A DNA stretch of 64,000 bases from positions 1,054,001-1,118,000 of the forward strand of contig NZ_KZ614145.1 in assembly GCF_002884495.1 (NCBI RefSeq). The letters are read 5' to 3'. This stretch comes from Rummeliibacillus pycnus (GTDB lineage: Bacteria; Bacillota; Bacilli; Bacillales_A; Planococcaceae). The position numbers and the translations under genes are program-made. The notes beneath the pieces were generated by a model. The model did not search any database. It was not told where the DNA came from and saw nothing but the letters and a program-made list of their open reading frames with translations. The number at the start of each line of letters is the position of its first letter. Position 1 is the first letter of the stretch. Shown piece by piece: positions 40,125 through 53,056 of the stretch.

Positions 40125-40451
40125 TTATTTAAAATCATGGTTATGCTCGTGATCTTCATGATTACAACCACATGGTTCAGGAATAATGTAGCCATCTAAA
40201 ACAAGTTCAACTTCTTCACCTGTTTCATCAATTCCAATTGTGACATCTTTTAAATCATCCACTACAGCCGGTTCAATTGCAATTTTCACATTGTCGACGA
40301 TTTCAATTTTGTCTTCAGCCTGAGCTGGTTCAAATTCAGCAGTCAAAACCGGTTGACAACATCCTGCCAAATTATAAAAACGCAACGTATCTTCATTCTT
40401 TTCAGCCATTTCCTTTTTAAAAAATGCTGCAGCTTGTTCTGTCATTTGCAT
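40125..40451 (-). CDS. HesB/IscA-like protein with Cys/His-rich tail
   Basis: 108 residues from ATG 40451 (GGAGGCG upstream; the ATG at 40505 lacks a site). The fold resembles HesB/IscA iron-sulfur carrier proteins: an N-terminal helix MQMTEQAAAFFKKEM, the strand LRFYNLAGCCQP with a Cys pair, then beta strands to a C-terminal CGC followed by NHEDHEHNHDFK. The His/Asp-rich end looks like an extra metal-binding extension. Partner and substrate are unknown; it stands alone. Confidence 0.75.
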   Translation of the reverse strand: MQMTEQAAAFFKKEMAEKNEDTLRFYNLAGCCQPVLTAEFEPAQAEDKIEIVDNVKIAIEPAVVDDLKDVTIGIDETGEEVELVLDGYIIPEPCGCNHEDHEHNHDFK

Positions 40452-40628
40452 CTTTATCGCCTCCAAATTTTGAAAGTCAACTTTCAACAGAACTAGTGTA
40501 GCCACTAGAGTTTCTCTTCATACATGTAAACTAGTGTATAAGGTGATACAAGCACACTTACTTCTTTTTCTCCAAATGATGTAGAAGATGATATACATCC
40601 AAATAAAACTAACATGTGTGTTAATTAC

Positions 40629-42527: not shown

Positions 42528-42813
42528 ATGAAATTTATTGAGGCTTTCTTTTATGTTTTCAACCAGGGAGTTTCAATAAGGCAGCTGAAGCCTTATATCT
42601 AACACAGCCATCTGTAACTATGCACGAATTCAATCTCTTGAACGCAAAATTCAAATAAAACTTTTTAATGGAAAAGGAAATAAAATATCTTTAACGGAAA
42701 AAGGTGAAATTTATCCACATGCCAAAAAAATCCTACAATCCTATCCAGAAGCAAGGAAATCGAATTCTGTTTTTGTAGATTTCTTAAAGGATAAAATGTT
42801 CAGACAACACTAA
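42528..42813 (+). pseudogene. LysR regulator remnant (frameshifts + internal deletion)
   Basis: The first frame gives MKFIEAFFYVFNQG; shifted by one base it continues SFNKAAEALYLTQPSVT, a classic LysR helix-turn-helix; another frame gives RIQSLERKIQIKLF and LTEKGEIYPHAKKIL. This is joined after about 75 residues to a short LysR-like C-terminus (VFVDFLKDKMF) before the stop at 42811. Two frameshifts and a missing effector domain mark a dead, internally deleted gene. Confidence 0.75.
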
Positions 42814-42837
42814 ATTTATTTTATTGACATAAACCAT

Positions 42838-42877
42838 AAAAGCCTTTAAACGGTATTATTATCGTTTAAAAGCTTTT
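42838..42877 (+). terminator. Hairpin with AT stem
   Basis: Imperfect 15-bp stem AAAAGCCTTTAAACG/CGTTTAAAAGCTTTT lying just before the tRNA remnant at 42895. The layout (terminator then tRNA 3' end) repeats that of the 45594 and 50365 repeats, so it may be the terminator of the lost tRNA copy. Confidence 0.6.
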
Positions 42878-42894
42878 AAATTTGAGATTATGTA

Positions 42895-42927
42895 TGTTGA
42901 CTAAGAGAATCGAACTTCTTACTAATG
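42895..42927 (-). pseudogene. Degenerate tRNA 3' end (older att site)
   Basis: 33 bases resemble the T-arm and acceptor end of the tRNA at 50460-50530 (AAGAGAATCGAAC shared, with three or so changes elsewhere). It is followed, as at 45.7 kb, by AT-rich sequence and a homologous coiled-coil gene. Interpreted as a decayed attachment site of a related element. Confidence 0.65.
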
Positions 42928-43010
42928 TTAAGCTTACTATACTTCAAAATTCAAATTGTACAATTTTTGTGTATTCATTCTAAAAAAGATGTTTTAAAAC
43001 TTTAGATCAC

Positions 43011-43292
43011 TTATTTCTGATCGCCCAACTTTTTTCTTATATAATCAAAAACTATATATTCATAAGCTAATGATCTAACTTTATTGTTCAATTCGTCTAG
43101 TTCCTTTTCTATCTGTGGTATAAGTACCAAATTGAGATAAGAATAATACTCACTTTCGGTATTTTTAATTTCTCTTTTTGCAATTTTTAGTTTTTTGCTT
43201 AATAATTCCATTTGTTGACTATAGCTTGTTGTTTGTTTCTCTATTTCTGTTTTTATGAAGTCGATTTCAGCAGCTTTTGATAAATTATCCAT
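43011..43292 (-). CDS. Coiled-coil protein, paralogue of 45852-46133
   Basis: 93 residues from ATG 43292 (SD-like AGAAG upstream). All-helical, charged coiled coil: KTEIEKQTTSYSQQMELLSK and IEKELDELNNKVRSL. About 75% identical by eye to the gene at 45852-46133, and both lie at the same distance from a tRNA 3' fragment; their upstream sequences (AATTCTATAATTTAGTATAAT) also match. A mobile-element gene of unknown function; Sbal-like/phage accessory roles are speculation. Confidence 0.75.
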   Translation of the reverse strand: MDNLSKAAEIDFIKTEIEKQTTSYSQQMELLSKKLKIAKREIKNTESEYYSYLNLVLIPQIEKELDELNNKVRSLAYEYIVFDYIRKKLGDQK

Positions 43293-43574
43293 ATGTATTT
43301 TTCTTCTACTCAAAATTTATATTATTATTTAATGTAATTCTATAATTTAGTATAATGGAAAAATTTAAATTTCTTATTGGTAATTTTTTCTGTTAGTACT
43401 GTCTTTGAAAATAAGCAATACCATTTAACTTTGTTCAAATAATCTAATACTCTAACGAATAGCAATAAGCGATTGAAAATAGTACAATTTTAAATTCTGA
43501 CCTTATATTTTCAAGAGTAACTCCATGCTAAAAAACATTCCCCTTTCCACAATTGGTCATGAGGATTTCGTGAA

Positions 43575-44459
43575 TCAGTTATTTTTATATTTTTTATATG
43601 TTAGTGGTGTCATCTTCATAGTCTTTCGAAACTTATCAATAAAATAACTTGTACTATTAAAACCTACTTGATAAGCAACATCAGTGACATTGAATTCTGG
43701 TTGTTGTAATAGGATGAGGCTTTTTTGAATTCGATAATCGGTTACATAATTTAATGGTGTTTTCTTTAAAATTCGTTTGAAATATCTACAACATTCGGAT
43801 CGGCTTAATTGACCTGCATTTGCAATATCTTCTAAAAGAATTTTCTCCGAATAATGAGTATGTATCCACTCTAACATTTTCTTCATTCGCTTACTTTTTA
43901 ACATTTCCATCTGTTCATACTCTAATTGAAAACCATTTACAATTAAGTTTTTCCAAATTAATGTTAACTGGACAGAAATATCAATTTCATAATAAGGAGG
44001 CGATTGTTGTATTAATTGATTGATATTGACAATAGCATCTAAAATGTTTTTCGCCCAAAGTTCCTTTACTTTCAGGTGTAAATATGGCAAGTTTGTCGCT
44101 TGTACATATGGATTTACAAAAGATGTATAAAGTTCTTGTGATAAAACGAAACTCGGAGATACATTTAAGCAAATATAAGCACAGCCCGAATGATTTTTAT
44201 CTTTTGCCATGTGCAGACAGCCACTATTTATAAATAGTCCATCCCCTTCTCGAACGGCAATTTTCTCTTCGTTTATTTGAAAAATTGCTTCTCCTTTAAC
44301 AACAAGAACAAATTGAAATTCATCATGCCAGTGAAGTGGTATATATCCATTTATATTTTGATTAATCATTGTTTCATAACATGCGATTGGTAACACCACT
44401 GTACGGTGTTCCGTTAATTCTTTGAAGCTTTGATCCACCTTAAAATCTTTTAGTAGCAT
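43575..44459 (-). CDS. AraC-family transcriptional regulator
   Basis: 294 residues. N-terminal cupin effector domain (PLHWHDEFQFVLVVKGEA … EGDGLFINSGCLH) and C-terminal double helix-turn-helix (LEDIANAGQLSRSECCRYF, then NVTDVAYQVGFNSTSYFIDKF). It is divergent from the EamA transporter 117 bases away, so it probably regulates that gene in response to a small ligand. It lies between two att-like tRNA fragments. Confidence 0.93.
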   Translation of the reverse strand: MLLKDFKVDQSFKELTEHRTVVLPIACYETMINQNINGYIPLHWHDEFQFVLVVKGEAIFQINEEKIAVREGDGLFINSGCLHMAKDKNHSGCAYICLNVSPSFVLSQELYTSFVNPYVQATNLPYLHLKVKELWAKNILDAIVNINQLIQQSPPYYEIDISVQLTLIWKNLIVNGFQLEYEQMEMLKSKRMKKMLEWIHTHYSEKILLEDIANAGQLSRSECCRYFKRILKKTPLNYVTDYRIQKSLILLQQPEFNVTDVAYQVGFNSTSYFIDKFRKTMKMTPLTYKKYKNN

Positions 44460-44576
44460 ATAATCACCTCAATATACTTATATTTCCCCGTTAGATTTAG
44501 GTATTAATTTAGAGACATTCAACTTATTATATGAAACATAATAACACGATTTTTATAATTTAAGGGAGAAATCATT

Positions 44577-45485
44577 ATGACTAGAAGAAAAGGGATTATT
44601 CTTGTGTTAACAGGAGCAGCTTTTTGGGGAATTGGTGGAACAGTTGCGAAGAAGCTATTTCAACAATATGGAATTGATGTAGATTGGCTTGTAAGTACAC
44701 GATTGCTAATAGCAGGAATTCTACTCTTAACAATTCAATTTTTTGGAAAAGATCGTTCTCAAATCCTTGGTGTTTGGAAAACAAAGAACATAGCTATTCG
44801 ATTGATACTATTCGGGTTATTTGGAATGCTTGCGGTTCAATATACATATATGGCTGCCATAAAACATGGTAATGCTGCTATTGCAACTCTTTTGCAATAT
44901 TTAGCTCCTGTAATGATTATCATTTTCTTACTTTTACGCAAACAAACTGTATTTACACGAAAAGACATGTTAACGATTTTGTTAACTTTAGTAGGGAGCT
45001 TTTTCTTATTAACTAACGGCTCACTTTCTCAATTATCTGTACCACCACTTGCCATCGTTTGGGGTGTTTTATCTGGTGTATCCTTAGCATTTTATACTTT
45101 ATATGCTGTTCCTTTGCTGAAACAATTCGATTCACTCGTTATTGTTGGTTGGGCTATGATTATCGGTGGTTTTGCATTGAGTTTTATCCATCCCCCTTGG
45201 CAAATAGACTATAAGAGCTTAACACTAGAAGTTTATTTATATTTACTCTTTGTTATAATTTTTGGGACTATGATTGCATTTTGGTTCTATATCGAAAGTT
45301 TACAAAGTCTTTTACCTAAAGAATCAAGCATTCTAGGAAGTATTGAGCCGCTAGCGGCAGTTCTAACAACCGTCTTTTGGTTAAAAGAATACTTTGGGAT
45401 TTTCCAATGGGTTGGTACAATTTGTATTATTACGATGATTTTCATACTGGCTTTCAATAAAGATTCTGTTGATCATCAATCATAA
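44577..45485 (+). CDS. EamA/DMT-family transporter
   Basis: 302 residues with ten membrane helices in two EamA repeats (about 8-140 and 150-290); the first contains [18 protein letters not shown] and the second [20 protein letters not shown] with [11 protein letters not shown]. RhaT/YdcZ-like exporters of amino acids or metabolites. Preceded by AGGGAGAAA. Divergent partner of the AraC regulator. Confidence 0.92.
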
Positions 45486-45593
45486 TTAAAAAATGTAATT
45501 TTTATAAGGTCTATTAATGGGCATCCAAATCACTATTAAATTTGATGGTGATGAATATCTAATAGAAATGTGTATGTCACTATTAACATAAGA

Positions 45594-45722
45594 TAAATTC
45601 AGCAAAACAAAAATCCTTATGAACGTTTATATACCTACATTCATAAGGATTTAAAAAGATTATTAATTTTACTAAAAAAGCTTTATTATGCCGACTAAGA
45701 GAATCGAACTCTTATCAATGGA
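45594..45722. repeat. 129-bp direct repeat, left copy (attL)
   Basis: Identical, by my base-by-base reading, over all 129 bases to 50365-50493. It contains the last 30-odd bases of the tRNA gene (45690-45722) and the terminator hairpin 45611-45652. It marks the left end of the integrated element. Confidence 0.9.
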
Positions 45723-45762
45723 GCTGGTTTTACTGTATTTCTATATTCCAATGTGTAATATT

Positions 45763-45770
45763 TGTGTAAC
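45763..45770 (+). promoter_or_regulatory. Candidate integrase arm site
   Basis: TGTGTAAC, with a variant TGTGTAAT 11 bases earlier; the same octamer recurs four times near attR (50285-50336). Confidence 0.45.
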
Positions 45771-45851
45771 ATAAATCTATATGAAAGATGGTTCAAACTC
45801 TAAATTTCATCCAAAAATTTGAACCATCTTTCACATTTTTGTTCAAACGCG

Positions 45852-46133
45852 TTATTTCTTTTCTTTCAACTCTCTTTTTATATACTCAAAAACCATATAT
45901 TCGTAAGCTAAAGATTTTGCTTTTCTGTTCAATTCGTCTATTTCTTGTTCTATTTGAGGTATTAGTGACAAAGTTAGATAAGAATAATACTCACTTTCCG
46001 TATCTTTAATTTCTCTTTTTGCAATTTTTAGTTTCCTTGTTAATAATTCCATTTGTTGACTGTAGCTTGTCGTTTGTTTGTCTATTTCTGTTTTTATTAA
46101 TTCAATTTCTGCAACCTTTGATAGGTTTTCCAT
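45852..46133 (-). CDS. Coiled-coil protein, element B copy
   Basis: 93 residues, ATG 46133 with AGAAGGAAT upstream. Charged heptad-type helix throughout (NLSKVAEIELIKTEID … QEIDELNRKAKSL). Paralogue of 43011-43292, about 75% identical, each next to a tRNA 3' fragment. Probably an accessory gene of the element family; no known domain recognised. It lies left of the HNH gene, same strand, 200 bases apart. Confidence 0.8.
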   Translation of the reverse strand: MENLSKVAEIELIKTEIDKQTTSYSQQMELLTRKLKIAKREIKDTESEYYSYLTLSLIPQIEQEIDELNRKAKSLAYEYMVFEYIKRELKEKK

Positions 46134-46292
46134 ATTTATATTCCTTCTACTTAAAATTTAGTATAATTCTATAATTTAGTATAATAGAAGAAATTTATAT
46201 TCTAATTGGTAATTTTTTCTGATTGCTAGTCTATATAAATTATTTTATAATAAATAATTTTATAGGTTGCGTTATTGATTCAATAAAAAAGA

Positions 46293-46313
46293 GAGTAACC
46301 ATGACGGCTACTC
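46293..46313 (-). terminator. Terminator after the HNH gene
   Basis: GAGTAGCC/GGTTACTC stem with TTTTTT on the minus strand, 25 bases past the HNH stop. Confidence 0.75.
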
Positions 46314-46337
46314 CAAACAAATAAACATCCTATTAAT

Positions 46338-47198
46338 TTAATACATATCCTTTAATTGATCTAAATTTATCTTTAACCCACACTTTATTAATCTTTCTTT
46401 TCTAATATTAAATAATATTTCAACATCCTCACGAATATCTTTCTTACGTCCATGATGTAATCTTCTGTGACAGTTAGGACATAAAGATATAACATTAGCT
46501 CCTACATCCAAACTATATTCAAATTGAGATTGGTATTTTAATGGAATTAAATGATGTCCTTCTACATACTGTCTTTTAGTTCCACTATTTAAAAACGTCT
46601 CATGTTTAGAGTTAATTTCACATTGAAAATTAGCATCATTTATAGCATTTGAAGAGACAAATGGATTTCGATTTAAAATTTTGATATTCTTTTCTACTAG
46701 TATTGGCTTATCTATAGTTTTATCAAAAATAATTTTTTTATCTTGTATTTGTTTTTGAAAATCTTCTTCATTTAATTTATCATCTCCAAATAATAAATCG
46801 TAGTTATATTCAAGCTTATCTTTTGTTTCAAACCAAGTATCAATTTCATATTCTCTCATTGTTGGAGCATCGAATCCGTCAAACGTTGCTGGTCTTTTAA
46901 AAATTCTTTCATAGTGTCTAATTGCTTTTTCTAATTCATCTTCATAAATTACCTTCCAAAACATTCGATAATAAATCAATTCATCAATATCAAAGTTTGA
47001 TTTTTTCATATATCTAATTATTTTTTTAGCATCAGAATAAGTTGATACTAAATCAAATAATATTTCATACATTTGATAAGTTAATTCTATTCCTTGATTT
47101 TGTAATTGTTTATGAGTAGCAAAAAACTCTTTAGACGTATTACATTTGGCAAATACTTTAATAAAATCACTCATATTAAATCCAGATTTGTATTCCAT
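46338..47198 (-). CDS. HNH endonuclease with PPR-like helical repeats
   Basis: 286 residues from ATG 47198, six bases after GGAG. The N-terminal third reads as ~33-residue helical repeats (FIKVFAKCNTSKEFF…; YQMYEILFDLVSTYSDAKKI…; YYRMFWKVIYEDELEKAIRH…) like pentatricopeptide repeats. The C-terminus is an HNH nuclease: EGHHLIPL, then GANVISLCPNCHRRLHHG with zinc-type Cys pair. An HNH nuclease with PPR-like repeats is uncommon in bacteria. Defence or homing roles are inferences from its mobile setting. Confidence 0.85.
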   Translation of the reverse strand: MEYKSGFNMSDFIKVFAKCNTSKEFFATHKQLQNQGIELTYQMYEILFDLVSTYSDAKKIIRYMKKSNFDIDELIYYRMFWKVIYEDELEKAIRHYERIFKRPATFDGFDAPTMREYEIDTWFETKDKLEYNYDLLFGDDKLNEEDFQKQIQDKKIIFDKTIDKPILVEKNIKILNRNPFVSSNAINDANFQCEINSKHETFLNSGTKRQYVEGHHLIPLKYQSQFEYSLDVGANVISLCPNCHRRLHHGRKKDIREDVEILFNIRKERLIKCGLKINLDQLKDMY

Positions 47199-47523
47199 AT
47201 TAATCTCCACTTCTTTTATTTATGTTGAAAGTTATGGAAATATTTCTATCTGGTTGCAACCTATCATAACTATTCAAAAGGAATTATATATTATAATAAA
47301 TTTCATGTAAATATAATATATTTCTGATTTTCAATAGACCATTGTACTCATTTTAACATTAATTTATTGATATTCAGATATATCCCTCATAATTTCATAA
47401 TATTGTTAAAACAAGTAGTTTATTAGTTTTTATTTATTTTATAATCTATCCATATAATCCATATATATGTTATTTATATCTAGCAAAGCACTCCATATCT
47501 GATAGATTTATTTATCGTCAAGA
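47199..47523. other. Gap of 325 bases, very AT-rich
   Basis: No gene, hairpin or repeat stands out. Composition is far more AT-rich than the surrounding coding sequence, as is common around phage-derived cargo. Confidence 0.4.
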
Positions 47524-47691
47524 GTGAATAAAGAATTAGTAGAAATATACGAAACAAGTGAAATCACAGAAGAAAATGTTAAAGAAATATTGGATAATTT
47601 TGTTCATTATAAATTGCAACAACGTAAAATAACTCACTTCACTTTGGATAACAAGGCTATTATATATATATTAAAACTTTGTAGCACTTAA
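47524..47691 (+). CDS. Short hypothetical protein or fragment, 55 aa
   Basis: A 55-codon frame beginning GTG at 47524 (VNKELVEIYETSEITEENVK) and ending TAA at 47689. The sequence is plausible protein, mostly helical, but the ribosome binding site is weak and no family is recognised. It may be the tail of a lost prophage gene. Confidence 0.35.
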   Translation: MNKELVEIYETSEITEENVKEILDNFVHYKLQQRKITHFTLDNKAIIYILKLCST

Positions 47692-47774
47692 TTAATTCAA
47701 ATACTAATTTCACCTTAAATATAAGACTTTTATCTTATTCATCATATATCATTTTACTTATTTTTACTAAAATA

Positions 47775-48203
47775 CCCAAAAAAACAAGCACTGTATCTTT
47801 TAATAAACAAACTGCAGAAGCGAAAGGGTTATTCCCAATTTTCAAGCCAAAACCTAAGCCAAAACCTAAACCAAAACCACAGAAAAAGAAAAAAACAACA
47901 GCTCAAATTTATAATGGAGCAAAAAAGAAAGGTGTTAAAGTTAAAGGTAGAAATTCTACATATAAATATTCAAAAAAACTAAGAAATCTTCCTAGTAAAG
48001 TTAATAAGGGCTATTCTTCAAGAGATCTATATAAAGATGGTAAACTAAATACTAGAAGATATTATAAAAAGGATGGTAAAGCTGAAGTAGATATACATTA
48101 TACAAATCATGGGAATGCAAAAAAACATCCAAAAGTTCCACATCGTCATGACTGGGGCTATTCTTCTAAAGGGATTTGGAGAAAGAAAACGGAATGGTAT
48201 TAG
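47775..48203 (+). pseudogene. Polymorphic toxin C-terminal tip (N-terminus lost)
   Basis: Open frame with no start codon, ending TAG at 48201. A Lys/Pro linker (KPKPKPKPKPQKKKK) leads to a basic domain ending RRYYKKDGKAEVDIHYTNHG, then HPKVPHRHDW. These conserved His-rich blocks resemble C-terminal domains of contact-dependent or LXG toxins (type-24-like by memory). The delivery domain is missing, so it is a cassette relic; the following gene fits an immunity partner. Confidence 0.6.
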
Positions 48204-48213
48204 GAGGGATAAT

Positions 48214-48444
48214 ATGGATGAAAAGGTTTGGAAAGAATTTAAAGAAGCTATAGAAGAAGGGCAAGAATTGGCATTCGATTATAAAGATGAAGAATGGTGG
48301 ATTAGTAGAGTACCTGAAGAAAAAAGCTTTCTACTCACACGTTCAAGAGATTCCTACACTCAGGCTTTTAAAACTGCAGAAGAACTCTTTAAACAGGGGA
48401 TAATTGATGGAAAGCCTTTTATTGAAAGAATAAAGGACTTATAA
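48214..48444 (+). CDS. Putative immunity protein of the toxin tip
   Basis: 76 residues from ATG 48214, with TTAGGAGGGATA upstream; the reading frame's earlier start overlaps the toxin and has no site. Acidic (KEFKEAIEEGQELAFDYKDE, EEWWISRVPEEKS), as expected of immunity proteins that bind basic toxins. It follows the toxin tip by 10 bases. No family recognised; identity is from position. Confidence 0.6.
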   Translation: MDEKVWKEFKEAIEEGQELAFDYKDEEWWISRVPEEKSFLLTRSRDSYTQAFKTAEELFKQGIIDGKPFIERIKDL

Positions 48445-48460
48445 TATTAAGAAAGCATAT

Positions 48461-48493
48461 GACTAGGTACTTATTAAATGTGAGTACCTAGTC
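48461..48493. terminator. Terminator between immunity gene and endolysin
   Basis: Perfect 11-bp stem, GACTAGGTACT/AGTACCTAGTC, followed by TTTACTTT; the convergent immunity and endolysin genes both end here. Confidence 0.85.
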
Positions 48494-48499
48494 TTTACT

Positions 48500-49192
48500 T
48501 TACACTTTCTTAACAATATCCTTATTAGCACTAATCCAATAACCTGATGCAGTTTTCAATCTAGTTGTACCAGCTTTTGATTTACCAATTTTTACAATAG
48601 TGAATGCAGTACCTTCTGGATATGCTATTCCTGATTTAGTATGATCATTAAACTCTACTGAAGTGCATAGGTTACAACTTTTAAGCAATTTAACCTTCTT
48701 AGGATTATTTGTGTAGTATTGTTCTTTGCCCACTTGTGGGCAATCTTTAGTTGTTTGTTTAGTTGCTTTTTTAACAGGAGTGTTAAATAATTCTTTCTCA
48801 GCATTACGTCTACGCACTAGACCTTGTAATACATTACCTCCACCTTTGTTATAGGCTGTGATCCATTTATTAATTGATACAATGCTTCTATCGCTACATA
48901 AACGATTTAGATTACCTACACCACAGTTATAACAAAAGCTAACTAGAGCATCAAATTGATTTTGATTTAGTTTCATACCCAGAGCATTCACATGATTCAC
49001 ATAGACTTGAATATCCTTATCAAATAATGCATCAGCTTGTTTTTGAGTAATAACTTGTCCTTTATGAATATTAGCACCATAATGTCCCCATCCAATTGTC
49101 CAATACTTTTCAGTTGGCACAGGTTTATACGCTGTTAATCGGCAACCTTCAAATGATTTAATTAATTTTTTACCGTTTTCTCCTAATTTCAT
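48500..49192 (-). CDS. Phage endolysin: GH24 lysozyme + C-terminal wall-binding domain
   Basis: 230 residues from ATG 49192 (AAAGGAA upstream). Muramidase domain of GH24 type: catalytic Glu in KSFEGCRLTAY near residue 15, then YWTIGWGHYG and FCYNCGVGN, and the end of the fold QGLVRRRNAEKELF. A C-terminal ~75-residue beta-rich domain (LLKSCNLCTSVEF … TASGYWISAN) resembles SH3-like wall-binding repeats. No signal peptide, so it relies on a holin; the holin gene is next door but truncated. Confidence 0.9.
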   Translation of the reverse strand: MKLGENGKKLIKSFEGCRLTAYKPVPTEKYWTIGWGHYGANIHKGQVITQKQADALFDKDIQVYVNHVNALGMKLNQNQFDALVSFCYNCGVGNLNRLCSDRSIVSINKWITAYNKGGGNVLQGLVRRRNAEKELFNTPVKKATKQTTKDCPQVGKEQYYTNNPKKVKLLKSCNLCTSVEFNDHTKSGIAYPEGTAFTIVKIGKSKAGTTRLKTASGYWISANKDIVKKV

Positions 49193-49267
49193 ATGTATCA
49201 TTTCCTTTCTTTAATATACAAGGGGGCGATATTTCGTCCACCCCTTTTGAATTCAATATGTATAGTT

Positions 49268-49606
49268 TTATTTCTTTTCGCTATCATCTTTAATATTGAT
49301 AAACTTCTCTTTAATTTGTTGTGGCAAAGGTACTTTCATCGCTTCTAAGTTTTCCAGTATTGATATGGCTTCAATTGATAGCAAATAGTAAGCTACCATT
49401 GTACGGAATACAGGTACTCCACCTATTAGTAAATCAAGCATATTAGCTACAATTAGAGCTACAAAGTACATACTTTTCCGTAACATTCCTTTATAACCTA
49501 CTCGACTTGACATCTTACCTGTTACCCAGCCTTTAGTTACTCCTGTAACAATATCAAGTATCATAAATACTGCTAAAATAGATAAACTTACATTCCAATC
49601 ACCTAT
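49268..49606 (-). pseudogene. Phage holin, N-terminus deleted
   Basis: Holin of the Bhla/TcdE-type: hydrophobic hairpin MILDIVTGVTKGWVTGKMSS, then VALIVANMLDLLIGG and a basic tail. The frame runs upstream past the ATG at 49564 as GDWNVSLSILAVF up to about 49606, where it meets a stop and the integrase sequence. The missing first ~40 residues indicate truncation by deletion. It may still be expressed from internal ATG 49564. Confidence 0.75.
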
Positions 49607-50291
49607 ACGTCACGCACATAATGTTGGAGATATTAAATACAACATTACTTTCAACAGAAAAATTAACGCAACTAACGAAGGTAAAAAAGCACATGATAAA
49701 TATTTAGACTTTGACGAATCGCAAATATTATACAATTATCTACTTAATCACCTAGAGACTACTCAGTTTAATTATTTGTTTATTTTAGCCTTAGTAAGTG
49801 GAGCTCGATTTCAAGAATTAGTTGGATTAACTTGGAAAGATTTAGACTTTGAAAATAATATATTTGATATTAACAAAGCGTGGGATCATCAGAAACAAAG
49901 TGGATTTACTCCTACGAAGAATGAACAGTCTATACGTAAAATTGCAGTTGATCCTGCTGTTATGAAAGAATTTAAACTAATATGTCCTGATACTAATTTA
50001 GATGATCGAATTTTCAAAAGTCCACACAGCCCATCAAAATCATTAACAAACAATGGTGCAAATTCAGCTCTCGAAAAAATTTTAAAAGAATTAGGATTAA
50101 AAATAATTACTGTACATGGGTTACGTCACACTCATGCAAGTGTATTGTTATTTAATGGAGCTTCCACACAGTACATTGCTGAACGCTTAGGTCACAAAGA
50201 CGTACAAACTACTCTTAACACATATAGTCATGTTATAAAAGAGCTTAAAACCCGTGATGACAGTGTTGCTATTAGCATTTATAATGTGTAA
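49605..50291 (+). pseudogene. Tyrosine integrase, catalytic half only
   Basis: About 228 residues of a phage integrase catalytic domain: Arg in VSGARFQELVGLTW, HGLRHTHAS (H-x-x-R), GHKDVQTTLNTYSH with the active Tyr, and a short C-terminus ending VAISIYNV*. The N-terminal arm-binding and core-binding domains are absent; coding sequence begins abruptly at ~49605 (RHAHNVGDIKYN), exactly where the holin is broken. The catalytic residues look intact, so loss of function comes from truncation. Confidence 0.85.
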
Positions 50292-50336
50292 CATTTATGT
50301 GTAACGTTAAGTGTAATGTGTAACAATCTGTGTAAC
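50285..50336 (+). promoter_or_regulatory. Cluster of TGTGTAAC arm-site repeats
   Basis: Four exact TGTGTAAC octamers (50285, 50298, 50317, 50329) and one variant in 52 bases, immediately after the integrase stop and before the attR repeat. Position and repetition fit integrase arm-binding sites. Confidence 0.6.
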
Positions 50337-50364
50337 ATGATTAAAAAGTTGAGGTTTTTAATGC

Positions 50365-50493
50365 TAAATTCAGCAAAACAAAAATCCTTATGAACGTTTA
50401 TATACCTACATTCATAAGGATTTAAAAAGATTATTAATTTTACTAAAAAAGCTTTATTATGCCGACTAAGAGAATCGAACTCTTATCAATGGA
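50365..50493. repeat. 129-bp direct repeat, right copy (attR)
   Basis: Identical to 45594-45722. Holds the terminator 50382-50423 and the tRNA T-arm and acceptor end; the tRNA's 5' half lies just to its right, so this side keeps the full tRNA. Confidence 0.9.
50382..50423 (-). terminator. tRNA terminator (duplicated at 45611-45652)
   Basis: Stem AAATCCTTATGAA…/TTCATAAGGATTT with T-run on the minus strand, about 37 bases past the tRNA 3' end. Confidence 0.8.
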
Positions 50494-50530
50494 TTACGAG
50501 ACCACCGTTCTACCATTAAACTAAATCGGC
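50460..50530 (-). tRNA. tRNA-Thr(CGT), integration target
   Basis: A 71-base cloverleaf on the minus strand: acceptor GCCGATT/AGTCGGC, D-arm with TAGTTTAATGGTAGAAC, anticodon loop CTCGTAA (anticodon CGT, Thr), T-arm AAGAG-TTCGATT-CTCTT and discriminator A. No CCA is encoded. The anticodon stem shows a U·U mismatch (31:39) and a G·U pair, so structure or charging may be odd. Identification by reading only. Confidence 0.72.
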
Positions 50531-50652
50531 ATTTGGAGAATTTATTGCTTATCAACTACAGGAATTATTGTAGCACTTTTCAGGGAAACTTTCTAGGGTT
50601 TTAGATAAAAATTTTTGCAATATATTAATTTCCCTATTGCTTCATCAGATTT

Positions 50653-51084
50653 TTATAAATGAGTAGCTTTTTTTAATTTGTAACGGAATTGATTCAACTG
50701 GAAAAAGATAAAGCAGCCAATGCAAAATCCTAGAATTGCAATACCTGATGCAGCTGCAACCATAATTGTAAAAATATAACCCATTACTGGTTTATCTACT
50801 TCAAAGCCTATAAAACCAAGTACTAAGCAACTAATGGCAATGCACGAATTAAATTTTTGTTGAACAATATCTTCAGGAATATATTCAGATGGTTTTTTCT
50901 TTAAAAACAATCTCGCAATTTTCATAACAGGATTAAAGTTAAATAATAAACCTAATAAATTTGCAATAAGTGGAAGTAATAAGATTAGTGGTTGATGAAA
51001 TATCCACGTAGCTACTGTACTTAACAAAATAGTCCATTGATTAACACGAACTAATGGTCTTGGAATCGATAATGGCTTTTTCAT
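50653..51084 (-). CDS. DUF4395 membrane protein
   Basis: 143 residues from ATG 51084 (AAAGGTTGG upstream). DUF4395 features: the IPRPLVRVNQ start, a cytoplasmic-type loop with KKKPSEYIPEDIVQQKFN and three to four membrane helices. Function unknown; in other genomes often near thioredoxin-like genes, which are absent here. Located just beyond the tRNA. Confidence 0.82.
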   Translation of the reverse strand: MKKPLSIPRPLVRVNQWTILLSTVATWIFHQPLILLLPLIANLLGLLFNFNPVMKIARLFLKKKPSEYIPEDIVQQKFNSCIAISCLVLGFIGFEVDKPVMGYIFTIMVAAASGIAILGFCIGCFIFFQLNQFRYKLKKATHL

Positions 51085-51290
51085 ATAAAACCAACCTTTC
51101 ATATAAGATTTATATAAATAATACTACTTATTTTAATAAATCGAAAGGTTTTTTATCTAAAAAATTTTAAATTCTTCATTAATTCCATATCATTTTACAT
51201 TATTTAAAAAATACAAATGTCTTCCATACTATCAACTTTGTTTTAAATACGTTATGATTATAGAAAAAGTTTGTGAAAGAAGGTACTGAT

Positions 51291-51902
51291 ATGAAAAAAT
51301 GGAAGGTCATTTCTTCAATTTGTTTAGCGACTGCACTAATTGCCGCTTGTAGCAATGATTCAGAAAAAACTTCAAAAGAACCAGCTAAAACAGAGGCATT
51401 TACTACTGACTCGCATAAGACTACTCAATCAGATCAAACTAATCAAAGTTCATCTTCTTCAACTCAACAATCCGAGAATGTTTCAAAGAAGACTGCTGTT
51501 TCTGGACAAAAAATGACGAAAATTGAAAAACAAAAGCTTATCAATTTCATAGAAAAATATCCTGTTGAATATGTAAAAGCAATTGATTCGGGTGACTTTA
51601 CACCTTTGGCTAATGAATACATTATGCACGACACAAAATTATACGAAGATCTTTTAGCAGCAATTCCTAAAAAACATAAACAAGGGATAAAACTGCAAAT
51701 TAATAAAGTGGAAGTTACATCCATTAAACGTAATTCAGACACAGATATTACTGTTGATACAAAAGAAATTATCGATGAAACTCAAAATGGGAAGACGAAT
51801 ACAAAGCAATTCCTTCGCAAGTATAAAGTCTTCTACAATTATGTTGAAGGCAATGATGCACAAAGTTTCTTCCAGATATCTGATATAAAAGATATAAACT
51901 AA
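51291..51902 (+). CDS. Lipoprotein of unknown function
   Basis: 203 residues from ATG 51291 (AGAAGGTA upstream). Lipobox IAAC near residue 17-20, then a Ser/Thr/Gln-rich linker (SDQTNQSSSSSTQQSENVS) and a compact C-terminal domain (INFIEKYPVEYVKAID … TVDTKEIIDE). Membrane-anchored extracellular protein; no family recognised, reminiscent of TcaA-NTF2-like tail domains. Confidence 0.82.
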   Translation: MKKWKVISSICLATALIAACSNDSEKTSKEPAKTEAFTTDSHKTTQSDQTNQSSSSSTQQSENVSKKTAVSGQKMTKIEKQKLINFIEKYPVEYVKAIDSGDFTPLANEYIMHDTKLYEDLLAAIPKKHKQGIKLQINKVEVTSIKRNSDTDITVDTKEIIDETQNGKTNTKQFLRKYKVFYNYVEGNDAQSFFQISDIKDIN

Positions 51903-51915
51903 ACTTTTTCATATG

Positions 51916-51950
51916 AAAAAGGAGTAAGCTAATTGCTTACTCCTTTTTGA
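51916..51950. terminator. Bidirectional terminator
   Basis: Perfect stem AAAAAGGAGTAAGC/GCTTACTCCTTTTT between the lipoprotein and the convergent ABC operon. Confidence 0.9.
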
Positions 51951-51955
51951 TATTT

Positions 51956-53056
51956 CTATTTATAGTTACCTAAAATCTTCACTGCTTCTTCTGTAACAGA
52001 CGTATCAATTGCCTTATTAAAGTCAAATTTTCCTTGAGTTGCTCCGTTCGCTTTATACATTTCATATTGCTTTTTAATATCATCTATACGCATTTTACCA
52101 TCTGGGTCCAATCCAGTTACATATACCTTATCCCATAATGCTGGATCTTTTAATGCAGTATATTTTGTCATAATGTTAACAATTTCCGCTTTTCCTTCTC
52201 CTTTAGTGAAAGCATCATTATAGTCACGTACTCCTTTTAAATAGGCAAGCATAAATCGTAATGATACATCTTTTTCATCTTTCATAAACTTAGGGGATGC
52301 TAAAACTAATGCAATTTGTGAATCTGGTGCAAAGTCAGTTGCATCACCAAAACGTGTAAGAATTCCTTTGCTAACACCTTGAGCAATTAAAGGCTCAATA
52401 CTAAGTGCGGCATCAATTGAACCATTTTCCAAGGCACCTAGCATACTGCCAAAATCGTTCATAATCACTGTTTTAACATCTTTCTCAGTTAATCCAGCAT
52501 GTTTTAACATAAGTTGATAGATATAGCCATCAATAGAGTTTCTTGAAGAAATGGCTATTTTCTTTCCTTTAAAATCCGGATAATCTTTTATCACATTTTT
52601 CATTTTGTTGCCAATGACAAAAGTAAAATAAGATTTTCCCGGCATATTATGACCTTTATCCCCTACAATTTTCACGTCAATTCCTTGTGCAATCGCATTA
52701 AAGAATGACGCAGTAGATATTCCCCCAGCAATATCTACTTCACCTGCAGCAAGTGCCGGTAACATATCATCACTATTTGCGAATTGTGCAAATTCTACTT
52801 CAATATTATAATCCGCAAAATAGCCTTTTTCATTTGCTATATAAAAACCTGCACCAGATGCTGCACCATCTTCAGCAATGACTACTTTCGTTTTCTTTTT
52901 TAACGGTGCTAAATCCCCTGATTTATTTTCCTTACTTACCTTATTATCTACTTTAGCATTATTTGTTGGTGATGTACTTTTTTCAGTACATCCTGTAATA
53001 ACCATTGCAATTAGTACAAGTGGAATTACAAGTAATCGTTTCACCCATTTCCCCAT
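51956..53056 (-). CDS. ABC transporter substrate-binding lipoprotein (SsuA/NMT1-like)
   Basis: 366 residues. Lipobox VITGC near 20-24; the mature part is a periplasmic-type binding protein of the nitrate/sulfonate/thiamine-precursor (NMT1/THI5-like) group: VVIAEDGAASGAGFYIANEKG, EVDIAGGISTASF, and ALSIEPLIAQG. It binds the solute outside the membrane. Third gene of a three-gene operon. The ligand (sulfonate, taurine or pyrimidine precursor) is not readable. Confidence 0.9.
   Translation of the reverse strand: MGKWVKRLLVIPLVLIAMVITGCTEKSTSPTNNAKVDNKVSKENKSGDLAPLKKKTKVVIAEDGAASGAGFYIANEKGYFADYNIEVEFAQFANSDDMLPALAAGEVDIAGGISTASFFNAIAQGIDVKIVGDKGHNMPGKSYFTFVIGNKMKNVIKDYPDFKGKKIAISSRNSIDGYIYQLMLKHAGLTEKDVKTVIMNDFGSMLGALENGSIDAALSIEPLIAQGVSKGILTRFGDATDFAPDSQIALVLASPKFMKDEKDVSLRFMLAYLKGVRDYNDAFTKGEGKAEIVNIMTKYTALKDPALWDKVYVTGLDPDGKMRIDDIKKQYEMYKANGATQGKFDFNKAIDTSVTEEAVKILGNYK

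Follow-up and report, generated by a model that had tools for sequence, protein, structure and literature searches.

Prophages of Oenococcus that lie in tRNA genes have attachment (att) sites whose lengths, tabulated in PMC8074189, range from 11 to 128 bp, and the Oenococcus oeni prophages and remnants described there parallel the locus reported here in having tyrosine integrases in tRNA genes and a remnant in tandem with a prophage, with degenerate att sites; they differ in host and in the tRNAs used, and that paper never uses the word "terminator" in its main text. In integrative elements with extended identity blocks, attP, the att site of the incoming element, carries a replacement 3' end (PMC10111431); the block may extend into the rho-independent terminator, as stated there for the fis gene, and may reach ~250 bp, a length given for icd and for many tRNA genes; the subject of that paper is satellites embedded in helper prophages. 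Here we describe a 4.8-kb element enclosed by two copies of a 129-bp repeat in a stretch of 64,000 nucleotides (nt) of the Rummeliibacillus pycnus genome (contig NZ_KZ614145.1, positions 1,054,001 to 1,118,000; hereafter the window). We consider it very likely that this is a deleted temperate prophage stacked in a tRNA-Thr(CGT) gene, with att repeats that include the terminator and an older element to the left. Long identity blocks, blocks that reach into a terminator, 3' ends supplied by the element and tandem remnants with degenerate att sites have all been published in the sections cited (PMC10111431, PMC8074189), and the locus is a scar of a common and well-understood type beside an even older one. 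An earlier note on this DNA, made from the letters alone, had called the att duplication larger than usual, which holds against tens of bases but not against the 128 bp and ~250 bp given in those sections; the 129-bp identity block is long, not exceptional.

A search of the region 44000-52500 (minimum length 25) gave a single family of direct repeats, the 129-nt pair, whose copies are 100% identical and spaced by 4771 nt, and ARAGORN located a single tRNA in the window, the tRNA-Thr(CGT). By coordinates, the repeat comprises tRNA positions 39-73 (35 nt of the 3' end) and 94 nt downstream, the latter including an AT-rich hairpin terminator (AAATCCTTATGAA...TTCATAAGGATTT) and, directly behind it on the tRNA strand, a run rich in T. 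The right copy completes the tRNA gene, the arrangement of a Campbell-type prophage in such a gene. A 33-nt stretch of the tRNA end (at most 3 mismatches) occurred twice in the window, the highest count in 100 shuffles being 0. When the 129-mer was compared with the whole 3.85-Mb genome (E value of 0.001 or less), five matches were obtained: two full copies, two of the hairpin in reverse complement and one partial copy to which we return below. The exact tRNA-end pattern had no match in the viral_contigs set.

A relative, Rummeliibacillus suwonensis G20 (G002 in our numbering, in which the present genome is G000), has a prophage in the same tRNA-Thr(CGT) gene, with repeat copies at G002:C1 1582430 and 1625235; the tRNA position at which its repeat ends is also that of the window repeat. 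Holin and lysozyme sequences follow in the same order, and the integrases are ~80-82% identical over the shared part. The G002 prophage differs in being 42.8 kb long and in its repeat copies, which share 108 bp at 93.5% identity (7 mismatches). It has head, tail, lysis and integrase genes; among the 10 proteins scanned were a terminase, portal, protease, capsid, tail proteins and a transposase. The transposase gene and its partner, a DnaC-like ATP-binding protein gene (L014 10749-12985), presumably form an IS21-like element.

Against this prophage the window element appears as two ends brought together. Homology with the G002 holin reaches 49606 and homology with the middle of its integrase begins at 49611, the switch falling, in the alignment, in a short stretch only partly common to the two G002 parent sequences. 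The holin and the integrase have both lost their N-terminal parts at this one junction, as expected of a single deletion. The reading frame of the integrase fragment is open, with no stop, and its first possible in-frame start is a TTG at 49776; the integrase gene beside the att site is present as this fragment only, and residues 1-131, which a whole integrase of an active, excisable prophage would possess, are missing. Since both integrase and holin lack N-terminal parts, the remnant should be unable to excise by its own integrase. No match to head, tail or replication families (Pfam, PHROG) was obtained in the 7 frames scanned between the repeats; because structural genes were found in G002 and in none of these frames, we class the element as a deleted remnant. 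Repeat search and ARAGORN thus bore out the earlier note's perfect 129-bp repeat of tRNA 3' end and terminator around 4.8 kb, and its proposal of a deleted prophage bounded by left and right att sites (attL and attR) that include the terminator gains support from the phage genes, the G002 prophage and the junction. The features of the locus are listed in Table 1.

Table 1. Features of the tRNA-Thr(CGT) locus in window coordinates (ORF, open reading frame; aa, amino acids)
Feature	Position	Strand	Evidence
Terminator-like hairpin, old, belonging to the decayed att copy	42832..42882	-	Match to hairpin model R1 (39.7 bits, E 1.2e-4), G000:C1:1096832-1096882
Decayed tRNA-Thr 3'-end fragment (third att copy, probable older integration)	42888..42930	-	Genome search, alignments
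100-aa ORF, paralogue of the 93-aa ORF beside attL	43011..43313	-	70/93 residues identical
Divergent AraC-type regulator (43575-44459, -) and EamA exporter (44577-45485, +)	43575..45485	.	Pfam
attL: 129-bp repeat, tRNA-Thr 3' fragment and terminator	45594..45722	-	Repeat search, genome search
Two GTGTAAY repeats, possible integrase arm sites, attL side	45753..45770	+	Motif count; putative role
Orphan ORF, 93 aa	45852..46133	-	In no other of 261 family genomes
HNH endonuclease; C-terminal part like type IV restriction enzyme model	46338..47210	-	PF01844; PADLOC mREase_IV E 5.1e-13, residues 158-268
Fragment like C-terminal part of phage-associated toxin families	47775..48203	+	phrog_21033, phrog_18811; no N-terminal part seen
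Small ORF, possible immunity partner (from position)	48214..48444	+	phrog_3711 (unknown function), matched via longer frame 48109-48444
Phage lysozyme (endolysin) with DUF5776	48500..49201	-	PF00959, PF19087; phrog_7
Holin, N-terminal part lost at deletion junction	49268..49606	-	PF05105 from profile position 21; G002 homologue 130 aa
Deletion junction, ~33.7 kb missing relative to G002	49606..49611	.	Left matches to L013:11756, right from L015:5451
Integrase fragment with catalytic domain (tyrosine integrase)	49611..50291	+	PF00589; 80% identity to residues 132-361 of 365-aa G002 integrase
Five GTGTAAY repeats, possible integrase arm sites, attR side	50286..50336	+	Motif count; putative role
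attR: 129-bp repeat completing the tRNA gene, supplying its terminator	50365..50493	-	Repeat search, ARAGORN
tRNA-Thr(CGT), whole	50459..50531	-	ARAGORN

In the mechanism that we favour, a temperate phage with a tyrosine integrase would have recombined with the 3' half of the tRNA-Thr(CGT) gene, its attP bringing a replacement 3' half with a terminator behind it. After integration the whole tRNA would stand at attR, and the displaced 3' end with its terminator would form attL. A later deletion of ~34 kb, from the holin to the middle of the integrase gene, would have left the lysis genes, the accessory genes and the catalytic integrase fragment; homologous recombination between the 129-bp repeats could presumably still remove this remnant. 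The site would have been used earlier too, the decayed att copy and the paralogous terminal gene being what is left, on the left side, of an earlier element that has almost disappeared.

That older scar, absent from the earlier note, is a third, decayed att copy at ~42830-42930, with a hairpin and a tRNA end carrying several changes. It includes the partial match of the genome search (window 42888-42927, 85% identical to repeat positions 90-127, E 7.9e-4); the hairpin model that detected its terminator is not specific, having 20 matches in this genome. Beside the decayed copy lies a paralogue of the 93-aa ORF, the pair differing by 8, 11 and 26 changes at codon positions 1, 2 and 3, with a ratio of nonsynonymous to synonymous substitution rates of 0.25 to 0.34 (three methods), suggesting that both have probably been real genes. 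This orphan family was found in only one of 261 family genomes, the present one, in two copies, each next to an att site. A gapped alignment of ~42790-43410 with 45592-46240, spanning att, spacer, gene and upstream region, was identical at 499 of 691 columns (110 gaps). Because the decayed att copy adjoins a diverged paralogue of the terminal 93-aa gene, the locus has probably taken at least two related elements in succession. In addition, a left-flank gene (40125-40505) lies ~1.7 kb from attL in G002 as well. This supports the view that the third copy marks where the chromosome once met the element; no other left-flank gene matched, and G001 was unusable for this comparison, its copy being on another contig. 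The AraC and EamA genes between the two scars may be cargo of the older element or a later arrival. They occur side by side elsewhere in the family, for example in G003, where ~0.98 Mb separates them from the tRNA. At the thresholds used, G002 yielded neither gene, and the only relative in G001 was one of EamA (45%). Near the old scar, at 42540-42800, inspection by eye suggested a possible broken start of a LysR-type regulator gene.

We searched 101 genomes, the present one included, with the right repeat and tRNA (E 1e-10 or better). Six matched: the present genome and G002 with two copies each, and G001, G003, G030 and G046 with one; the remaining 95 gave no match and were uninformative. Both two-copy genomes hold an element between the copies, in agreement with the prophage proposed in the earlier note. 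Among the single copies, that of G003 has other neighbours and that of G001 lies in a rearranged region, in which (L016 7200-11625) the tRNA-Thr and a neighbouring gene are inverted, compared with the window, relative to ABC transporter genes.

Carriage of a terminator was common at tRNA-adjacent loci with a related integrase. Specifically, 24 of 37 loci with such an integrase had a tRNA on the opposite strand no more than 600 bp downstream, the other 13 being without a tRNA within that distance, and a hairpin started 22-45 nt from the tRNA end at all 24 (one, at G037, was weak). Each hairpin was compared with 40 of its own dinucleotide shuffles, and 23 of the 24 beat all of them; at G037 two of the 40 shuffles reached its score (2/960 overall). 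A covariance model was built from 30 of the 37 hairpins, G052, G221, G112, G125, G026, G209 and G254b being left out for a missing motif or a doubtful hairpin. It matched 17 of 18 genomes (E 0.1 or better), with 20 matches in the present one. When 30 loci found by this search were fetched, 19 had no tRNA within 300 nt, and four (L196, L200, L211 and L215), whose 3-kb loci gave no integrase match, adjoined tRNA genes. A conserved hairpin between integrase and tRNA had been considered as a phage-encoded element, and this was dropped, the same form being common away from tRNA and integrase genes. The hairpin form is that of a common host-type terminator and not a hallmark of phages.

For other prophages, attL was sought in 13 regions of at most 60 kb. 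A matching tRNA-end fragment was present in four of the ten regions with a tRNA (G002, G106, G299 and G025) and was not found in the other six (G127a, G121, G110 with 31 kb only, G224, G293a and G254a); with the fragment seen in only four of ten, we claim no distribution of core lengths. G115, in which no tRNA was detected, had a 77-bp match at 82%. In G106, an exact block of 57 bp takes in just the first few bases of the hairpin, and different terminators stand at the two ends. This fits a crossover inside the tRNA, under which the hairpin beside the intact tRNA would be that of the phage. In G299, two diverged hairpins of the same form were observed.

From where the repeat ends, the crossover probably took place inside the tRNA, near the anticodon stem. 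A crossover in the terminator would require no tRNA fragment at attL, yet such fragments exist in the present genome and in the four prophages just named, arguing for the tRNA, though none was found in the other six prophages searched. Just inside the repeats, two short patches contain 7 of the 19 GTGTAAY and 5 of the 6 GTGTAAC occurrences in the window and may represent arm sites of the integrase. Bacillus phage BCJA1c (NC_006557), with a related integrase (47.5%) of the same group, shows GTGTAA repeats, a hairpin, a 3' end resembling that of tRNA-Arg and further GTGTAA repeats in this order downstream of int; it differs in being a free phage with tRNA-Arg as its apparent target.

Several observations weigh against the reading of a deleted, stacked prophage, or against parts of it. 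No undisturbed syntenic empty site was seen among the genomes searched, that of G001 being rearranged. The left part of the element (93-aa ORF, HNH gene and toxin-like fragment) matched none of three G002 stretches at the DNA level (E 1e-3); the G002 prophage is therefore related to this phage but distinct from it, and the size of the deletion holds on the G002 scale only. The arm sites and the crossover point are predictions from sequence, and the GTGTAAY total for the window is not above chance (19 against a shuffle mean of 14.8, with 19 or more in 19 of 100 shuffles). BCJA1c matches tRNA-Arg 3' ends exactly over 12 nt, at an E value of 0.45, which is not significant alone. As to the loss of excision, a second, full-length related integrase (45%) is encoded in the same genome (G000:C1:3564065-3565174) and might act in trans; no tRNA was found in the stretch just downstream of it.

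Three partial copies of the tRNA end in a row could also have arisen by local tandem duplication, the phage genes being there by coincidence. We regard this as scarcely credible and already largely refuted by the G002 prophage, since the interval holds lysis and integrase genes in the order of that prophage, whose own copies end at the same tRNA position, and GTGTAAY repeats lie just inside both copies. Nor does it seem at all probable that the element is a phage satellite or a small island, as its 4.8 kb and accessory genes might suggest: the holin and the integrase are both truncated at a single point, where two far-apart parts of a long prophage meet, and no satellite gene was named by the Pfam or PHROG family matches.

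A more serious question is how the repeats came to be identical. The earlier note took full identity as a sign of recent or selection-kept integration, an interpretation that the sequence does not establish, in that 0 differences in 129 positions fit a recent event but gene conversion would look the same. Gene conversion, or a second integration into the attR of an earlier close relative, may have produced the identity instead of an original match between phage and host; we judge this possible, if somewhat doubtful. In its favour, the older scar to the left has a related terminal gene beside it and a hairpin unlike the other two; the middle terminator of a stack should stem from the earlier element; and the G002 copies differ at 7 of 108 positions even though that prophage is long. 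However, the older and newer flanks, with 499 of 691 columns identical, indicate that the two elements were not near-identical, and no donor sequence is known. The perfect identity is compatible with a recent event, gene conversion or successive integration.

The 93-aa protein had no match among phages, no relative in viral_contigs and none in the G002 genome, and the HNH protein had four partial phage matches, none covering 80%. The orphan fragment resembling a toxin C-terminus and the small ORF downstream of it (47775-48444) are on one strand and the lysis genes on the other.

The locus resembles a hotspot of integration at which elements of two or more generations have settled. It provides a case, open to checking, in which a phage entered a tRNA gene and supplied it with a new end as well as a new terminator; the 129-bp att repeat needs no special explanation. 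We suggest, tentatively, that in this integrase clade attP may bring along, as a functional part, not only the tRNA 3' half but also a terminator to replace the existing one. If so, integration would never leave the tRNA without a stop signal, the terminator would separate the tRNA from the convergent integrase gene, and stacked integrations would leave a row of fossil terminators, three at this locus.

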